52,793 nucleotides of DNA from Faecalicoccus pleomorphus DSM 20574 (lineage in GTDB: Bacteria > Bacillota_I > Bacilli_A > Erysipelotrichales > Erysipelotrichaceae): contig NZ_ATUT01000015.1 of the NCBI RefSeq assembly GCF_000420345.1, positions 1 through 52,793 of the forward strand, read 5' to 3'. The notes beneath the pieces were generated by a model. The model did not search any database. It saw nothing but the letters and a program-made list of their open reading frames with translations, and was not told where the DNA came from. The translations under genes and the position numbers were made by a program. This document shows positions 394-7,497 of the stretch, piece by piece; within the stretch, counting starts at the first letter, position 1, and every line of letters starts with the position of its first letter.

Positions 394-1050
394 CTATAAA
401 ATATCTAACTCTAAAAAATGTTTGATATCCTCAAAACTCCTTACTTCTAAATCCGCATCTCTTGTATCCTGTTCAATAATGGAACCTTTGTAGCCAACTG
501 TAAAAATTTTAGAATTTTTACCAGCTTTGATTCCATTTATAGAATCTTCAATAATCAATAGATTTTTCCGAGGAATGTTCATTTCTTTGGCCGCAAATAA
601 GTAAATATCCGGTGCAGGCTTACTATTTTTAACTATTTCACCGCTAAATACTTCATCAAAATAATCATGAATTTGTAAACGATTTACAACATTTTTTAAA
701 TAATTCATATTTGAAGAAGATACAATTGCTGTCTTTAATTGTTTTAATTTACACCATTTAAGAAATTCCAATAGATAAGGCATTGGCTGTAAATTCATTT
801 GGTTAAATTTCTGATCAAAAATTTCCCTTTGTCCCGTAATCAACTCTTCATCAGTATAGTTCTCTAAAGGAAATTTGACTCTCAATGTTTTAATGATACA
901 TGGCATTTTCTGTCCTAATACATTTACTACATCTTCCAAATTCGTTTCTATGCCAAGAGTAGAAAGATAATCCATCAAAGAATTTATGTATATAGCTTCA
1001 CTATCGAGTAAAACTCCATCACAATCAAATAATATGCCTTTTATCTTCAT
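394..1050 (-). CDS. HAD-superfamily hydrolase, beta-phosphoglucomutase-like
   Basis: A 218-residue HAD protein with all four motifs. Motif I is FDCDGVLLDSE near residue 8, motif II is the serine in VSSS near 112, motif III is the lysine in NSKPAPD near 143, and motif IV is IIEDSINGIKAG near 167. The helical cap after motif I places it in the PgmB/GPH subclass of sugar-phosphate phosphatases and mutases. It is the last gene of a PTS operon and overlaps the BtpA-like gene by one base, so it is probably translated with it. A likely role is dephosphorylating or isomerising the imported sugar phosphate or a product of it. The substrate cannot be read from sequence. Confidence 0.85.
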   Translation of the reverse strand: MKIKGILFDCDGVLLDSEAIYINSLMDYLSTLGIETNLEDVVNVLGQKMPCIIKTLRVKFPLENYTDEELITGQREIFDQKFNQMNLQPMPYLLEFLKWCKLKQLKTAIVSSSNMNYLKNVVNRLQIHDYFDEVFSGEIVKNSKPAPDIYLFAAKEMNIPRKNLLIIEDSINGIKAGKNSKIFTVGYKGSIIEQDTRDADLEVRSFEDIKHFLELDIL

Positions 1051-1874
1051 TAAAAAGAACTTCTATATTGCTTTAATCTATCCATAAATCGTTTTACTCG
1101 TTTCTCATCAACTTCATTTTCAAAAATTCCATCTTTTTTAAAATGTGTTGCTATAAACGCTGCATCTGCTACCTCATATACTTCTTCGATTGTATCATAA
1201 TTTACTCCTGTTGTTGCAAAAAGCACAGTATCTGGATAATCCTCTCGAATTTCTCTCATGAATTCCATATCAATTTTCTTGCCTGCATTAGCCCCACAAA
1301 TTCCAATCGCATCTGGAAGGTTACCAAATAATTCTCCATTAACAATAGAATGCTTATCACGTCCTCCAATTTCACAACTGGATTCTGGAATCACATAATG
1401 AACCATTTTTAGCTTCTGAGATAATCCTAAATTATTTCTATGCCGCAAGAATTCACCCGGATGAGCATTTGTTAATCCCATATTTCCTGAAAACGCCCCG
1501 GCGAAAGTTCCTCGCATTAGCTGTCCTCCTATAACTGCATTTAGTGCAATTGAATCATGAGTATTTGAGATCACATTTGCACCATAAGGTACTTTAATGT
1601 CCTCTTTTAAAACCCCAATTACATAAGCCATTCCCGCAATAATTTCTGAAGATGGTTCAGCTTCATAAGGAAAACTGAATTCGTTAGAAAATAAAACTGC
1701 GTCAATTCCACCATTCTGCAGAGCCAATAAATCTTTACGTGCACTTTCAATTACATCAGACATGCCTTTTTCGCTATTAAATAGAGGATCACTTGGAAAT
1801 GCTTTGAAATGAACTACACCAATAGCTGCTTTTTCTGTACCTACCACTTCACTCAACCATGTTTTTCTCATCAT
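1050..1874 (-). CDS. BtpA/SgcQ family TIM-barrel protein
   Basis: A 274-residue protein of the BtpA family. Recognisable features are the N-terminal GVVHFKAFPSDP segment, the LQNGGIDAVLFSNE segment, PYGANVISN near residue 98 and a C-terminal FMDRL. The family includes cyanobacterial BtpA, linked to photosystem I accumulation, and E. coli SgcQ, encoded in a PTS-type sugar operon. No enzymatic reaction is securely assigned to it. Here it follows EIID by 15 bases and overlaps the HAD gene, which supports a catabolic enzyme acting on a PTS product. Codons 1 and 2 are both ATG after an AAAGGAG ribosome binding site, so the start is uncertain by one residue. Confidence 0.82.
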   Translation of the reverse strand: MMRKTWLSEVVGTEKAAIGVVHFKAFPSDPLFNSEKGMSDVIESARKDLLALQNGGIDAVLFSNEFSFPYEAEPSSEIIAGMAYVIGVLKEDIKVPYGANVISNTHDSIALNAVIGGQLMRGTFAGAFSGNMGLTNAHPGEFLRHRNNLGLSQKLKMVHYVIPESSCEIGGRDKHSIVNGELFGNLPDAIGICGANAGKKIDMEFMREIREDYPDTVLFATTGVNYDTIEEVYEVADAAFIATHFKKDGIFENEVDEKRVKRFMDRLKQYRSSF

Positions 1875-1889
1875 TTTTTAATACTCCTT

Positions 1890-2726
1890 TTACAAAATTC
1901 CAATTAAACTACATACAACAGCAATCACAAACATTACAATCATTATCTTAAATACACTGGTATTTTTCCGAAGGCTCATGAATACACCTACTACTGCTAC
2001 AACGCTTAATAATCCAGGTAAAATTGAATTTAACAAATCCTGAATGACTATTGTAGAATCACTGATAGTAAATTGTAGAGGTGTTGTAATATTTACATTA
2101 TTAGCAATCATAGCACCTGCAATTGTAAGACCAATGATACTTAAAATATCAGTAATCTTATTCATAATTCGCTTGTCTGTGATTTTACTTAAGATACTTC
2201 TTCCTAGTGTATAACCTTTACTAAATGTGAAGATACCCATAGCCATTAAATAAATACCATAAAGCAAGCAGAAGATAATAGGCCCTAAGGCACTTCCTTT
2301 TAATGTCATATCGACACCAATAGCTAACGCAACTGTTTTAACCAATCCTTGTGTAATTGTATCTCCAATCCCTGCTAAAGGTCCCATAAGGCCAACTTTG
2401 ATATTTTTAATCATATCTTCATCAATGTTTCCACCATTAGCCATATCTTCTTCCATTGAAGCCACAAGACCTGGTATAAAAGCACCCCAGTTATTTTCTG
2501 TATTAAAGAACATCATATGACGTCTTAACGCTTTAATTCTTTCTTCCTTATTATCTGCATATAATCGATTTATAATAGGTGTCATGGCATGGCAGAATCC
2601 CATAGACATTAATCGCTCATATGATAAACATGATTCAGAAGTAGTCTCCCAAATAAGAAAACAACGAATTAAATCTTTTTTGGTTAACTGTTTTTTAACT
2701 GTTGCCTCATTAAGTGTTTCATTCAT
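1890..2726 (-). CDS. PTS mannose-family transporter subunit EIID
   Basis: A 278-residue EIID. The N-terminus has the family signature (LTKKDLIRCF, then SYERLMSMGFCHAM), followed by the GPLAGIGDTI segment near residue 115 and several C-terminal hydrophobic helices. EIID pairs with EIIC to form the membrane channel of mannose-family phosphotransferase systems. The start overlaps the end of EIIC by eight bases, so the two are co-translated. The protein is about the usual family length. Substrate specificity cannot be read from EIID. The accompanying BtpA and HAD genes are not part of standard glucose/mannose loci. Confidence 0.93.
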   Translation of the reverse strand: MNETLNEATVKKQLTKKDLIRCFLIWETTSESCLSYERLMSMGFCHAMTPIINRLYADNKEERIKALRRHMMFFNTENNWGAFIPGLVASMEEDMANGGNIDEDMIKNIKVGLMGPLAGIGDTITQGLVKTVALAIGVDMTLKGSALGPIIFCLLYGIYLMAMGIFTFSKGYTLGRSILSKITDKRIMNKITDILSIIGLTIAGAMIANNVNITTPLQFTISDSTIVIQDLLNSILPGLLSVVAVVGVFMSLRKNTSVFKIMIVMFVIAVVCSLIGIL

Positions 2727-3477
2727 TTTCGGTGCCTCCTTCTGTTAATTTATCCAATCCTAATGACCAATATAAAATTGCTCCAGCTATACCAATTAGC
2801 GTACATGCAATAATATCTAGTTTTAAATAAGCAATTAGTACAAAACCAATTATTGCAAATGCAACAAATTTTTTCTTATATACCGCTTTAAACATCATTC
2901 CTATTCCTAAAGCTGGTAATACAGCACCAACTACATTCAATGCATGTGAAATTTGTTCAGGTAAAGCATTCATAAATGTTTCAAAAACATCAGCTCCAAA
3001 ATAAACACAAATGAAAGCAGGCAGCCCATATACAACCATGCATACAAACTGTGGTAATAGCCAGTTATAAATCCATAAATGTTTAGTTTCTCCCGATTCA
3101 ATATACTTATCAGCCATATGAACAAATGCTACATTGACAGTCATTAAAGCATTAGTCGCGAGTAAGCCCAAAGTTCCTAATGTTACAGCAATCGTTACTC
3201 CAACTTCTGGAGTTTGATGAGACAACATAGTAACTGCTGTAGCAATTACGCCAGCATAGCATTTATCAAATGACGAAACTCCTCCAACTGTAATCTGCCC
3301 CATATAAATGAGCTGAATTGTAGCACCAATAGTAGCACCTGTCATCCAATCCCCTAAAATTAGACCTGTGAGCGCTCCCTCAATAATAGGGTTACGAATA
3401 ATCCATACCAAATATTCGACAAAGACATTTCCACAAATTGTGGCAAGTAATCCAACCATTAAACCTTGTACTAACAT
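2719..3477 (-). CDS. PTS mannose-family transporter subunit EIIC
   Basis: A 252-residue polytopic membrane protein of the EIIC-Man type. It begins with a hydrophobic helix, followed by the NPIIEGALTGLILGD segment and the TGATIGATIQLIYMG segment that is conserved in sorbose/mannose EIIC proteins. It forms the substrate channel with EIID. It lies 23 bases after EIIB behind a good GGGAG ribosome binding site and overlaps EIID. It is distinct from the second EIIC in this window (20282-21103), which carries a different second segment, so the two systems probably move different sugars. Confidence 0.92.
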   Translation of the reverse strand: MLVQGLMVGLLATICGNVFVEYLVWIIRNPIIEGALTGLILGDWMTGATIGATIQLIYMGQITVGGVSSFDKCYAGVIATAVTMLSHQTPEVGVTIAVTLGTLGLLATNALMTVNVAFVHMADKYIESGETKHLWIYNWLLPQFVCMVVYGLPAFICVYFGADVFETFMNALPEQISHALNVVGAVLPALGIGMMFKAVYKKKFVAFAIIGFVLIAYLKLDIIACTLIGIAGAILYWSLGLDKLTEGGTENE

Positions 3478-3500: not shown

Positions 3501-3968
3501 TTAATATACAAATTGTGAACGTTTTTCATCAGGTGTAACTTGGAAATAAACATTCACCCCCATATCTTGAATGCTCTTTAATGTATCTTTTTCACTCTGA
3601 CTTGCTGATATATTTTTGAATATTTTTTGCCTATCGGAACCGGCTCCCATACCACCTATATTTAGTTCTTTGAGCTTTACGCCAGCTTGAAATAATTCCT
3701 TAGCTACATAAGGAAACTTAATCAGGATTAAAACATTATCTGGTTCACTATCGAATTTCTCAACCAATCTTCGAATATCATCCAAACCAGTAATTATTAA
3801 TTCCCTATCTGATGGAGCAACCATTTGCATTATTCCTTTAATAAAATCATCTTTTGCCACTCCATCATCCACAATCCAAATTTTATCAATTTGTAGATTT
3901 TTTGCCCACGCTGTCACGATTTGGCCATGAATTAATCGATCATCGATACGAATCATTTTAATACTCAT
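3501..3968 (-). CDS. PTS mannose-family phosphotransfer subunit EIIB
   Basis: A 155-residue cytoplasmic EIIB. The phosphorylated histidine is His14 in the RIDDRLIHGQ motif. It receives phosphate from EIIA and passes it to the sugar emerging from EIIC/EIID. The family's NIGGMG turn is present near residue 104. The start codon overlaps the EIIA stop as ATGA, so the two are translationally coupled. Length and motif order are normal for the mannose/fructose/sorbose EIIB family. Confidence 0.94.
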   Translation of the reverse strand: MSIKMIRIDDRLIHGQIVTAWAKNLQIDKIWIVDDGVAKDDFIKGIMQMVAPSDRELIITGLDDIRRLVEKFDSEPDNVLILIKFPYVAKELFQAGVKLKELNIGGMGAGSDRQKIFKNISASQSEKDTLKSIQDMGVNVYFQVTPDEKRSQFVY

Positions 3969-4408
3969 TTTTCATTCTCCTTTCTTTTTGGTAATGTGTT
4001 TGATAGTAATTCTGAAAAATCAATAATCCCTTTATGACCTGAATCTAGCGCAATTTGCTTCATCACATCTAAAGATAAATTTTGTTTTAAAGCAGAAGCA
4101 ACTTCTACAACCATAGATAAATTCATACCACATATGATTTCTATGGAAATTTTTTTGCAGTACTTTTCATATACTCTTGTAGAAATCATAAAAGGACTAC
4201 CTCCAAATAGATCGGTTAAAATCAAAATCCCTTCGTCTTCCGATTCCAACACTTGCTCTTCTACCATTTGTTGATACATATCCATATCTTGCCCGTATGG
4301 GAGAGTAAGATATGATATTTTCGGACTTGGCTTACCCATAATTAGCTCTATTGTTTGGTAGAAAGATTTTGATAACTCAGAATGGCTTAATAATAATAAC
4401 CTACACAT
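3965..4408 (-). CDS. PTS mannose-family phosphotransfer subunit EIIA
   Basis: A 147-residue EIIA-Man-like protein and the first gene of the leftward operon. His9 in LLSHSEL is the expected phosphoacceptor from HPr. The LTDLFGGSPF motif near residue 64 is typical of the fold. An AAAGGAGG site lies upstream; the first ATG after it (4412) opens a four-codon frame, so the ATG at 4408, about ten bases from the ribosome binding site, is the start. The leader contains a perfect inverted repeat followed by a T tract, which could attenuate expression. Confidence 0.93.
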   Translation of the reverse strand: MCRLLLLSHSELSKSFYQTIELIMGKPSPKISYLTLPYGQDMDMYQQMVEEQVLESEDEGILILTDLFGGSPFMISTRVYEKYCKKISIEIICGMNLSMVVEVASALKQNLSLDVMKQIALDSGHKGIIDFSELLSNTLPKRKENEK

Positions 4409-4469
4409 TCATTCGTCTACCTCCTTTACGTTTCCAATTGTAACAACCCTATCCCGAAACACAAAATTC

Positions 4470-4504
4470 GTAAAAAAATAACACAGATTAATACCTGTGT
4501 TATT
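4470..4504 (-). promoter_or_regulatory. Inverted repeat with T7 tract in leader of the EIIA operon (possible attenuator or operator)
   Basis: Perfect 10-base arms AATAACACAG (4477-4486) and CTGTGTTATT (4495-4504) enclose an 8-base loop. Read in the direction of the EIIA operon, the second arm runs into seven T residues, the form of an intrinsic terminator inside the leader. The ATAACACA core recurs in the repeat at 4579-4626, which argues for a protein-binding site as well. Confidence 0.55.
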
Positions 4505-4527
4505 TTTAATTCTTATATTTTCACCCT

Positions 4528-4557
4528 ATAATAACTAATTTTCCATTCAATAGTAAA
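4528..4557 (-). promoter_or_regulatory. Candidate sigma-A promoter of the EIIA-EIIB-EIIC-EIID operon
   Basis: Minus strand: TTTACT as -35 (4552-4557), 18-base spacer, TATTAT as -10 (4528-4533). Transcription would start near 4521, upstream of the leader inverted repeat. No convincing sigma-54 -24/-12 element (GG-N10-GC) was found between the divergent genes. Confidence 0.4.
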
Positions 4558-4564
4558 GTAAGCG

Positions 4565-4593
4565 TTTTCATTTTTTAGAATGTGTGTTATTAT
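4565..4593 (+). promoter_or_regulatory. Candidate sigma-A promoter of the LevR-like regulator
   Basis: TTTTCA (4565-4570), a 17-base spacer, and TATTAT (4588-4593). The -10 overlaps the left arm of the inverted repeat at 4579-4626, so a protein bound there would probably block this promoter, as in autoregulation. Confidence 0.4.
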
Positions 4594-4626
4594 AAACCTA
4601 TCATCATAGTATAAATAACACACATT
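4579..4626. promoter_or_regulatory. Long inverted repeat with TGTGTTAT core (likely operator)
   Basis: Perfect 12-base arms AATGTGTGTTAT (4579-4590) and ATAACACACATT (4615-4626) are separated by 24 bases and followed on the plus strand by a T tract. The core is shared with the repeat at 4477-4504, giving four half-sites in one 286-base divergent intergenic region. The most likely ligand is the adjacent regulator. Confidence 0.55.
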
Positions 4627-4694
4627 TTTTTATCTGCAAAATAGTACAACACAATTTTCAAAGAAAGGGACACAATTTTGTGAGGTGATTTTCC

Positions 4695-7160
4695 ATGACT
4701 ACGCGAATCGAAAGAATAAGCAGTTATTTAAAAGAACAAACTGATGCAATTTTACAAGATGGTCTAAATAATGAACCAGGGATTGATGCTTTGTTATGTG
4801 CCCTAGATTTACACTTAGATAGAGCAAATGTATCAAAGGACCTGAACCGTTTGTGGAAAGAAGGTAGAGCAGTAAAGGTTCAAGGTAAACCTGTGTATTA
4901 TCTAGATTATACTGTTTTATCTAAGCATTTTCCGAATCAATATATACCATCTATAATCTCAAAAAATGAAAATTTAACTGACTTTTTATCAATGCAACCA
5001 TATAAAAAAGTGCATACAGAGAACAATTATTTTAATAATACTCTAGATGATATGATTGGCGCCAAAGGATCATTATCAGAAGTAATCATTAATGCAAAAT
5101 CAGCTATTTCTTATCCACCTTATGGCATTCACTGTCTTATTTTAGGAAATGCTGGTGTAGGAAAAACATTATTAACGCAACGGATGTATAACTTTGCATG
5201 TCAAGTAAGAAAAGCGGATTCCATTCCTTTTATGACTCTATCCTGCCAAAACTATCAAGAAAATCCTCAGTTATTTTCAGAAGCATTATTTGGAAGCAAA
5301 ACTAAAAATAATTCTCGCTACTCTCCAAGCATTTTTGAAACTTGTAAGAATGGAATCATTGTACTAGAACAAATTGACCGCCTCCCTTTTTCCTGTCAAA
5401 CACAATTAGCTTCTATTCTGAGCCGTAAAAGGTATCATACTATATATCAACAAGATGAACAGCAATTACAAAGTATGATTATAGCTACTACCTCAAAAAA
5501 TAATGACGATTGTAAAATAGAAACTCTTGCTAAGTTTATGCCGATACAATTAAAAATGGAAGATATAGATAAAAGAGGAATTTACGAGAAAATAGAACTT
5601 ATAATGGATCTATTCTCAGAAGAAGCGATTCATACTCATACTACAATTCGTGTACACAAAGATATTATAGCCTGGTTAGCTTCCAAAAAATTTCCTAACA
5701 ATATTATACAAATGAGAAATGAAATCCAGATTTCATGCAGCAAAGCGTATATGGAAATTAATGATCCAAAAAAGCAAATAGTATATGTATCATTTCAAAG
5801 TCTCTCTTTAGAATTACTTAGTCAGACCGAAAATACTCAAAACTTAAATTCTAATATTTTTAGTCTTTTATCTTGTATTCCATCTGATTATTTACAGTTT
5901 AATCAAGATGGCACATCTAATGCTGCAACTATTTTCAAAAATGCACCAAATATGTTTAAAGAGCATAGAATGCGTCAATTCATTGATGAATTTAATGTCA
6001 ATGTAGAAGAGCTGAAAGATATTAATCATTATGTCAAAGAAAATATCAATGTGTTAAAAGATTGTCCTTCCCCTCAACTAGAAGGACTACATAAAAACAT
6101 AAATCCATATGTTTATCAAGTAACGATGCAAAAAATAAATGAACGCCAACTTCTAAAAAAATTAAGCGAGCATCCACAACTTTTATATGGCATTTTATTA
6201 CATATTACAAACTATATATCACGTATCGAACACGGACAAACAGGAATTGATAACTCTAAATCAATGACAAAATACGTTTATCATAATGAATATTTGTGCG
6301 CTAAAGATATTTACCAAGAATTCTCGAGTTTATATAGCTTTACTCCTTCTGAAAGAGAAATAGATTTTTTAGCATCATATTTAGCAATAGCAAACCAATG
6401 GATTAATCATATTAATGTTGCCATTTTAGTTATTTGTCATGGAAAACATATTGCTTCGGAAATGGTTGATTATGTAAAAAAATCAGTACAAGGGACATTT
6501 TTTATAGATTCAATAGACTTTAACGAGGATATGCAACTTAACGATTTATTAGAGCTAGCTTGTATCAAAGCTAATGATTTAAATCAAGGTGCGGGTATCT
6601 TAATTGCATGTGACATAGAACCTCTGACATCAGTTTCTGAGCATATTCACAAACAAACGAATATACCAACAAAGTCTGTTAACAATATTAACCTAATGGA
6701 CCTATTGAATTTAACAGATCAAACCACATCACCCTTAAACGATTTAAATCAGATACGAATAAAACCAGATCATGAACAAAAGAAAATAAAAAAAGCAACA
6801 CAATCTGAATTTATACAGCAAATCAAGGAAAGAGTTATATCTAAAACTGTATCTTTTATTGATGTTAATAAATCAACTAGTATATTAGAAACTTGTTTAA
6901 AGAATACATTGAAAGAACTACATATGGAATATACAGATGTTCTAGCCATTAAATATCTGTGTCATTGTACAAATATGTTAGAAAGAATCATTCGAAATGA
7001 AACATGGGATTATCAAAAATCACACTTATTTATGAAAGAAAATTCTTATATGATTCATGTTATAGAACATGGATTAGAATTTGCTGCAAATTCATTTGGT
7101 ATAAAAATCCCTTTATCAGAACTAATTTATGTAACTCAGATATTTCTGCCCGAAGAATAA
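4695..7160 (+). CDS. LevR-type PRD-containing transcriptional regulator with degenerate AAA+ domain
   Basis: An 821-residue regulator, divergent from the PTS operon it probably controls. Order seen: winged-helix DNA-binding region (1-75), AAA+ domain (115-345) with Walker A GNAGVGKT at 151-158, first PRD (about 465-570, with His503), an EIIA-Man-like domain (573-690, His582 in ICHG), and second PRD (about 715-820, His757 and His788). LevR-family activators use AAA+ to open sigma-54 promoters. Here the GAFTGA loop expected after LFG at 200 is replaced by SKTKNNSRYSP, and Walker B reads VLEQID rather than LDEI. The usual arginine-rich sensor segment is also poor. It may therefore act as a DNA-binding, PTS-phosphorylated regulator of sigma-A promoters. 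Base composition is strongly AT-rich. Confidence 0.85.
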   Translation: MTTRIERISSYLKEQTDAILQDGLNNEPGIDALLCALDLHLDRANVSKDLNRLWKEGRAVKVQGKPVYYLDYTVLSKHFPNQYIPSIISKNENLTDFLSMQPYKKVHTENNYFNNTLDDMIGAKGSLSEVIINAKSAISYPPYGIHCLILGNAGVGKTLLTQRMYNFACQVRKADSIPFMTLSCQNYQENPQLFSEALFGSKTKNNSRYSPSIFETCKNGIIVLEQIDRLPFSCQTQLASILSRKRYHTIYQQDEQQLQSMIIATTSKNNDDCKIETLAKFMPIQLKMEDIDKRGIYEKIELIMDLFSEEAIHTHTTIRVHKDIIAWLASKKFPNNIIQMRNEIQISCSKAYMEINDPKKQIVYVSFQSLSLELLSQTENTQNLNSNIFSLLSCIPSDYLQFNQDGTSNAATIFKNAPNMFKEHRMRQFIDEFNVNVEELKDINHYVKENINVLKDCPSPQLEGLHKNINPYVYQVTMQKINERQLLKKLSEHPQLLYGILLHITNYISRIEHGQTGIDNSKSMTKYVYHNEYLCAKDIYQEFSSLYSFTPSEREIDFLASYLAIANQWINHINVAILVICHGKHIASEMVDYVKKSVQGTFFIDSIDFNEDMQLNDLLELACIKANDLNQGAGILIACDIEPLTSVSEHIHKQTNIPTKSVNNINLMDLLNLTDQTTSPLNDLNQIRIKPDHEQKKIKKATQSEFIQQIKERVISKTVSFIDVNKSTSILETCLKNTLKELHMEYTDVLAIKYLCHCTNMLERIIRNETWDYQKSHLFMKENSYMIHVIEHGLEFAANSFGIKIPLSELIYVTQIFLPEE

Positions 7161-7170
7161 TATTAAATAT

Positions 7171-7203
7171 AAAAAATGAGAGGATCGAAATCTCTCATTT
7201 TTT
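7171..7203. terminator. Bidirectional intrinsic terminator
   Basis: AAAAAATGAGAG (7171-7182) pairs perfectly with CTCTCATTTTTT (7192-7203) around a 9-base loop. It ends the regulator gene on the plus strand and overlaps the last codons of the DUF3784 gene on the minus strand. Confidence 0.8.
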
Positions 7204-7497
7204 ATATTTTCCAAATGCCTGATCAAAGTCCAAATGCACTTGCTTTAGAAAAAAGACCAGCCATATCACAAAAGCAGGAAAAATAACCCATTCTGTGACA
7301 TAAAAACATAAAATTGTCGATACAAACCATAGAATGTTACACCAGGCAAAAACTTTTCTTTGATCTTTTGCCAATTTGGCACAATCATAGCTCATTCTCT
7401 CTTCTTTCGAAAGAATGTTGAAACCACTAATCAAAAACACGCTTTTCTCTTTCAACACCCAAAATACAAGTGATAAAATGAAAAAGAATAAAGTCAA
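7195..7497 (-). CDS. Small membrane protein, DUF3784 family
   Basis: A 100-residue protein with an N-terminal hydrophobic helix, then a FLISGFNILSKEERMSYD segment and two more hydrophobic helices (about 50-85). The ISGFN-(x)-SKEE-(x)-YD pattern after the first helix is the mark of the DUF3784 family of small Firmicute membrane proteins of unknown function. It lies 18 bases after the phosphoesterase gene and is probably co-transcribed with it. Its stop codon lies in the stem of a terminator. Confidence 0.7.
   Translation of the reverse strand: MTLFFFILSLVFWVLKEKSVFLISGFNILSKEERMSYDCAKLAKDQRKVFAWCNILWFVSTILCFYVTEWVIFPAFVIWLVFFLKQVHLDFDQAFGKYKK

Follow-up and report, generated by a model that had tools for sequence, protein, structure and literature searches.

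A LevR-family regulator lacking the sigma-54 contact loop beside a mannose-class PTS operon in Faecalicoccus pleomorphus

The 52,793-nucleotide stretch of DNA analysed here (the window), contig C15 of the 1.99-Mb, 99.9% complete genome of Faecalicoccus pleomorphus DSM 20574, encodes a LevR-family regulator of 821 aa (4695..7160, + strand) without the sigma-54 contact loop, and we consider, with a probability of roughly 0.7, that this protein binds DNA, responds to the PTS and regulates its divergent PTS operon independently of sigma-54. A preliminary description had already proposed that a sigma-54 activator was converted here to a regulator that responds to the PTS and has dispensed with sigma-54, and this proposal agrees with everything seen in the sequence, among it the conserved histidines and the lack, against a control, of a -24/-12 promoter element. 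Its further suggestion, that the conversion came after loss of rpoN, has to be abandoned for this genome, since a full-length rpoN is present beside a canonical LevR gene with a perfect sigma-54 promoter.

Domain layout and altered AAA+ motifs

The open reading frame is unbroken, and Pfam and alignment support the LevR/ManR-type domain order that had been assigned to its product, namely a helix-turn-helix (HTH), an AAA+ domain, a PRD, a IIA-Man domain and a second PRD. The N-terminal DNA-binding HTH (aa 1-75; 4695..4919, +) was delimited by alignments, with helices at residues 4-21, 32-39 and 43-55 in the structural model, and together with PRD2 it is the best conserved region in the clade alignments. 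PRD1 (aa 481-563; 6135..6383, +) and the EIIA-Man-like domain (aa 577-653; 6423..6653, +) were recognized by Pfam and alignment, and PRD2 (about aa 700-818; 6792..7148, +) was placed by alignment, Pfam reporting two PRD stretches and listing the better one. H503 of PRD1, H582 of the IIA domain and H757 of PRD2 align with His-506, His-585 and His-869 of Bacillus subtilis LevR. The earlier claim that the PRD histidines are retained holds for H503 and H757 but not for the second conserved PRD1 histidine, which is lost. The EIIB-Gat domain, located between IIA and PRD2 in LevR, is missing from the window regulator and its clade, a point not made in the preliminary description; going by length only, short relatives that do carry GAFTGA also appear to be without it.

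According to Pfam, an AlphaFold2 model and PDB matches, the AAA+ domain (aa 118-360; 5046..5774, +) retains its fold and has changed catalytic parts. The Sigma54_activat profile matches aa 121-270 with 62.7 bits against a cut-off of 20.2, which places the domain in the AAA+ type of sigma-54 enhancer-binding proteins. Alignment to canonical LevR proteins upheld the motif changes noticed previously: Walker A, GNAGVGKT, is unchanged (aa 151-158; 5145..5168, +); the GAFTGA L1 loop, KGAYTGAENEQ in canonical LevR, is replaced by SKTKNNSRYSP (aa 201-211; 5295..5327, +); and Walker B has gone from LFLDEV to IVLEQI, so that IIVLEQI stands in place of hhhhDEh (aa 221-227; 5355..5375, +) and DE is now EQ (E225, Q226). 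The RR-P arginine-finger motif, absent from the preliminary description, is also gone, with LAKFMPI in place of FLRRIPM (aa 278-284; 5526..5546, +). The AlphaFold2 model, built from eight clade sequences, reaches a mean pLDDT of 77 and mostly exceeds 80 within the AAA+ part, and its best PDB matches for that part are the sigma-54 activator AAA+ domains of FleQ, NtrX and NtrC1; the ATP- and ADP-bound structures of the PspF E108Q mutant, which carries a similar E-to-Q change, are also among the matches. Because the fold and Walker A are kept and the loop, arginine fingers and Walker B acids are lost, the AAA+ part would most likely bind ATP without productive hydrolysis, with a probable role in oligomerisation or signalling.

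Like the sigma-54 activators LevR, CelR and ManR of Bacillus, Listeria and Clostridium, the window regulator combines the order HTH, AAA+, PRD1, EIIA-Man, PRD2 with the PTS histidines and a tie to a mannose-class PTS; unlike them, it lacks GAFTGA, arginine fingers, Walker B acids, EIIB-Gat and a -24/-12 promoter, and its gene order is divergent. DagR (NF047795) was its best NCBIfam match, in two stretches of which the better spans aa 3-689, and membership was rejected at 266.9 bits against the curated cut-off of 1400.

The clade, rpoN and -24/-12 promoters

Relatives were gathered by a search of genomes of the family, meaning Erysipelotrichaceae in the wide sense, and by an alignment scan of named genomes, in which Candidatus Merdibacter merdigallinarum and Dielma fastidiosa held the closest relatives by protein. 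A scan of the genome contigs with the single protein returned zero relatives, whereas the alignment-based scan did recover them. Among 71 full-length rows, 47 carry GAFTGA and 24 do not, and alignment of these LevR homologues bears out a shared, clade-wide loss, with the loop and the RR fingers missing from all 24. Walker B is changed in most of the 24 (retained in L063, L065, L072 and L073), and Walker A is absent from several. On the 71-row tree, calculated with the motif columns removed, loop loss appears as one change with support of 100, and clade members occur in Erysipelotrichaceae and in some Clostridia (Lachnospiraceae, Butyricicoccaceae, Oscillospiraceae). The AAA+ part of the clade is under purifying selection, the four close pairs that allowed a measurement giving dN/dS of 0.04-0.13, with synonymous sites near saturation in some pairs and saturated for the window regulator versus Merdibacter. 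Because they are common to every row of the clade and AAA+ dN/dS is low, the losses cannot be put down to chance or decay. That the gene is decaying or a sequencing artefact, as the loss of key catalytic residues might suggest, is contradicted by this conservation, by the intact reading frame and by the conserved neighbourhood; decay was rejected, and the explanation retains next to no probability.

Two clade members stand out individually. The genome's third LevR-like protein (782 aa; L014:6276-8624, contig C14), a divergent sequence counted among the 24, has an AAA+ core more degraded still, and its divergent gap carries ACACA/TGTGT boxes (L014:8795-8822). A Pygmaiobacter protein (L073:5381-7840) has an altered loop of nearly full length (CVRGAAPGMEKSR), intact Walker A and B and no RR fingers, and is a possible intermediate.

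The rpoN gene of this genome (C30:1835-2290; PF04552, 131 bits) is full length by TIGR02395, covering positions 1-434 with 261 bits, slightly under the cut-off of 277. It adjoins a gene for a canonical 904-aa LevR with GAYTGA, LDEV and RR, and a PTS operon lies next to that, with a perfect sigma-54 promoter, TGGCAC-N5-TTGCT (TGGCACGCTTTTTGCT, L005:5577), between canonical LevR and its PTS operon. This single cluster of rpoN, canonical LevR and mannose-class PTS operon (L005:1094-7700) looks like a sigma-54/LevR/PTS cassette; family-wide, at least 22 loci have rpoN adjacent to a canonical LevR gene, and one genome (G127) has five rpoN copies. A PF00158 match on contig C26 was rejected as an activator, being ClpB by sequence. 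Judged from its genes, this bacterium possesses what looks like a functional sigma-54/LevR pair and, apart from it, the window regulator. The clade spans genomes with rpoN and genomes where rpoN went undetected, the latter including Merdibacter massiliensis (G042, 99% complete), G183 (98%) and G048 (94%), so that in this lineage the loop was not lost in the wake of rpoN. In the genomes searched, Dielma fastidiosa likewise combines rpoN with a clade member.

The presence of rpoN was not matched by a sigma-54 promoter for the divergent operon: as had been noted before, no -24/-12 element is seen nearby, and none with a GG/GC core reaches even 7/11 in the 286-bp divergent intergenic region (4409..4694). 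Across 13 divergent clade gaps there are zero sites at or above the threshold of 10/11, the best being one 9/11 match. With the same threshold, a -24/-12 site lies within 500 bp of the gene in 36/47 canonical loci versus 2/23 clade loci (p = 6e-8, uncorrected for kinship). The two clade matches were rejected as promoters, both lying within coding genes (7377 in ORF 7195-7497, and L067:5672 in a IIA gene). Since promoters of canonical loci were found by the identical scan, absence from the clade gaps is a controlled negative.

These data bear on two further explanations. The presence of rpoN leaves sigma-54 dependence through an unknown contact compatible with the genome content, against our best explanation, and the retained AAA+ fold would likewise permit the window regulator to activate sigma-54 promoters via another surface; with loop, arginine fingers and Walker B all gone, no convincing site in the 13 gaps, and the clade persisting in near-complete genomes without rpoN, we give this a very slim chance. 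Equally hard to favour is an indirect action in which the window regulator enters rings together with the canonical LevR and so poisons or tunes activation through sigma-54: the genome does have one canonical LevR-type activator as a partner, but the two proteins share only 17% identity, and clade members live in genomes where neither rpoN nor canonical LevR was found.

The divergent PTS operon and its candidate operators

On the minus strand, the divergent operon begins with a PTS IIA gene of the mannose/GalNAc class (3965..4408; NCBIfam AgaF/EIIA-man, below cut-offs) and continues, by NCBIfam matches, with IIB of the mannose/sorbose class (3501..3968), IIC (2719..3477) and IID (1890..2726). 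A BtpA/SgcQ family gene (1050..1874; TIGR00259, 204.7 bits over cut-off) is last but one, and a HAD-family sugar phosphatase-like gene (394..1050; NCBIfam) ends the operon. The clade regulator is divergent to a mannose-class PTS operon in 13/13 family loci, IIA being the closest gene in each locus whose operon can be seen, and 19 of the 22 named loci have PTS genes divergent to it. Of the other three, L061 is cut off at a contig end; at L069 and L071, BtpA/HAD genes adjoin the clade regulator without PTS genes, suggesting that the transporter served has switched there.

The gap between regulator and operon contains two perfect 13-nt inverted repeats built on TAACACA/TGTGTTA, which we propose as candidate operators: operator 1, AAAAATAACACAG-N8-CTGTGTTATTTTT (4474..4507), was found by repeat search and box enrichment, and operator 2, AATGTGTGTTATT-N22-AATAACACACATT (4579..4626), by repeat search, as were two direct ACACAATTTT boxes 21 bp apart (4649..4679) ahead of the regulator start. 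Operator 1 scores also as a terminator-like hairpin and could act on RNA. In 13 divergent gaps, ACACA/TGTGT was observed 71 times versus 5.5 expected, and in 19 gaps 94 boxes were observed versus 16 expected from dinucleotide shuffles, with a shuffle maximum of 30; some clade gaps (G183, G051, L065) hold one box or none. Box density per kb is 14.1 upstream and 1.4 downstream of clade regulators, and 1.5 upstream and 4.9 downstream, usually the PTS side, of canonical ones. This modest downstream excess suggests that the box may be an old LevR-family site, retained while the sigma-54 contact disappeared. The box is tied to the window regulator through position and conservation. Sigma-70-like promoters score slightly better in clade gaps than in shuffled sequence, and the window region has three such sites versus 2.0 expected, a prediction too weak to serve as evidence.

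In B. subtilis LevR, P~HPr stimulates at His-585 and P~EIIB inhibits at His-869 (PMC10864463). For the window regulator we infer, from its sequence and surroundings, that it would bind the ACACA/TGTGT boxes between its own gene and the mannose-class PTS operon and act on ordinary sigma-A promoters to control the operon and probably also its own gene, as an activator rather than a repressor; H582 would be phosphorylated by P~HPr and H757 by P~IIB of the divergent PTS. Alternatively, the same sigma-54-independent protein could be mainly a repressor and autorepressor, its boxes overlapping promoters and its binding relieved by phosphorylation or sugar. In favour of this, the promoter-like site that scores best for the regulator's own gene (4565-4593) coincides in part with operator 2, and the box TGTGTTATAA shares bases with a TATAA-type -10-like site in G146, G048, L068 and L096. 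Against it, though weakly, the studied LevR/CelR relatives are activators, and operator 2 would lie where an activator might bind, upstream of the promoter-like site of the PTS operon (4557-4528). Repression as the main role is possible but rather unlikely.

Loop loss across the family

The sigma-54-independent reading of the window regulator has parallels in the wider family. In 19 family genomes where rpoN went undetected, 19/20 LevR-like proteins examined are without GAFTGA; the lone exception (L150:2010-4748, G137) has GAFTGA intact in a 75% complete genome, from which rpoN may simply be missing. Six further rpoN-undetected genomes each hold a GAFTGA-less clade member. GAFTGA occurs in 29/40 LevR-like proteins examined from rpoN-bearing genomes and in 22/22 with rpoN in the retrieved stretch, where no loop-less protein was found. 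Two more clades, of LevR-like proteins of about 870-937 aa, lost GAFTGA independently of the window's clade (the longer loop-less proteins are L138-L149, L151-L154, L157, L177-L178, L190-L194 and L196-L197), and -24/-12 sites accompany 1/30 of the longer loop-less proteins versus 23/30 loop-bearing ones of the same family. Trusting well-supported branches only, a 105-row tree gives at least five changes of loop state (one for the window's clade, one for each of the two longer-protein clades and two for individual proteins), a provisional count from a quick search with a simpler model. In one rpoN-bearing genome (G055), GSYTDS replaces GAFTGA in a protein with intact Walker B and a -24/-12-like site nearby (L166:559-3318), possibly a recent or partial loss. 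We lean, if only slightly, towards the view that in Erysipelotrichaceae and neighbours LevR-type sigma-54 activators repeatedly, at least five times, became sigma-54-independent, PTS-responsive regulators, the loop disappearing each time and the fingers and promoter element almost always going with it, with rpoN surviving mostly in rpoN-levR-PTS clusters; loop loss may precede and permit rpoN loss.

PTS-controlled PRD regulators at ordinary promoters are familiar from MtlR, LicR and MafR-type proteins, which have no AAA+ domain, and the window regulator would have reached a similar role from the LevR side with AAA+ present. Loss of the sigma-54 loop from an AAA+ activator with the fold kept also has precedents: TyrR, DhaR and HupR are loop-less and work with sigma-70, VpsR and YplP have been argued to do so (PMC3162934), and Caulobacter and Rhodobacter NtrC are loop-less and act with sigma-70 (PMC10274813). 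TyrR, DhaR, HupR, VpsR and these NtrC proteins belong to other subfamilies with other sensor domains, whereas the window regulator would sense via PRD/PTS and shows recurrent loss within one family. For Clostridiales, Nie et al. counted 490 activators, of which 355 have an exact GAFTGA and 100 a variant of it (PMC6615313); the remainder comes to about 35. In a 2025 survey that required GAFTGA, Erysipelotrichia tended to lack such activators (PMC12316311), the pattern expected if many of their activators are loop-less. A search of openly accessible literature found no report of a loop-less LevR-family regulator; loop-less activators are already known as a kind, and the LevR-family version, clade-wide and repeated, appears to be new.

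Domain searches call these proteins sigma-54 activators though the contact loop is missing, which is a warning for annotation, and counts that filter for GAFTGA discard them and so miss a whole class of gut-Bacillota PTS regulators. A directly testable regulon is provided by the ACACA box. With several independent losses, graded intermediates and sisters that still use sigma-54, the family lets one follow, as in a natural experiment with replicates, the conversion of an ATP-driven sigma-54 activator into an ordinary regulator.
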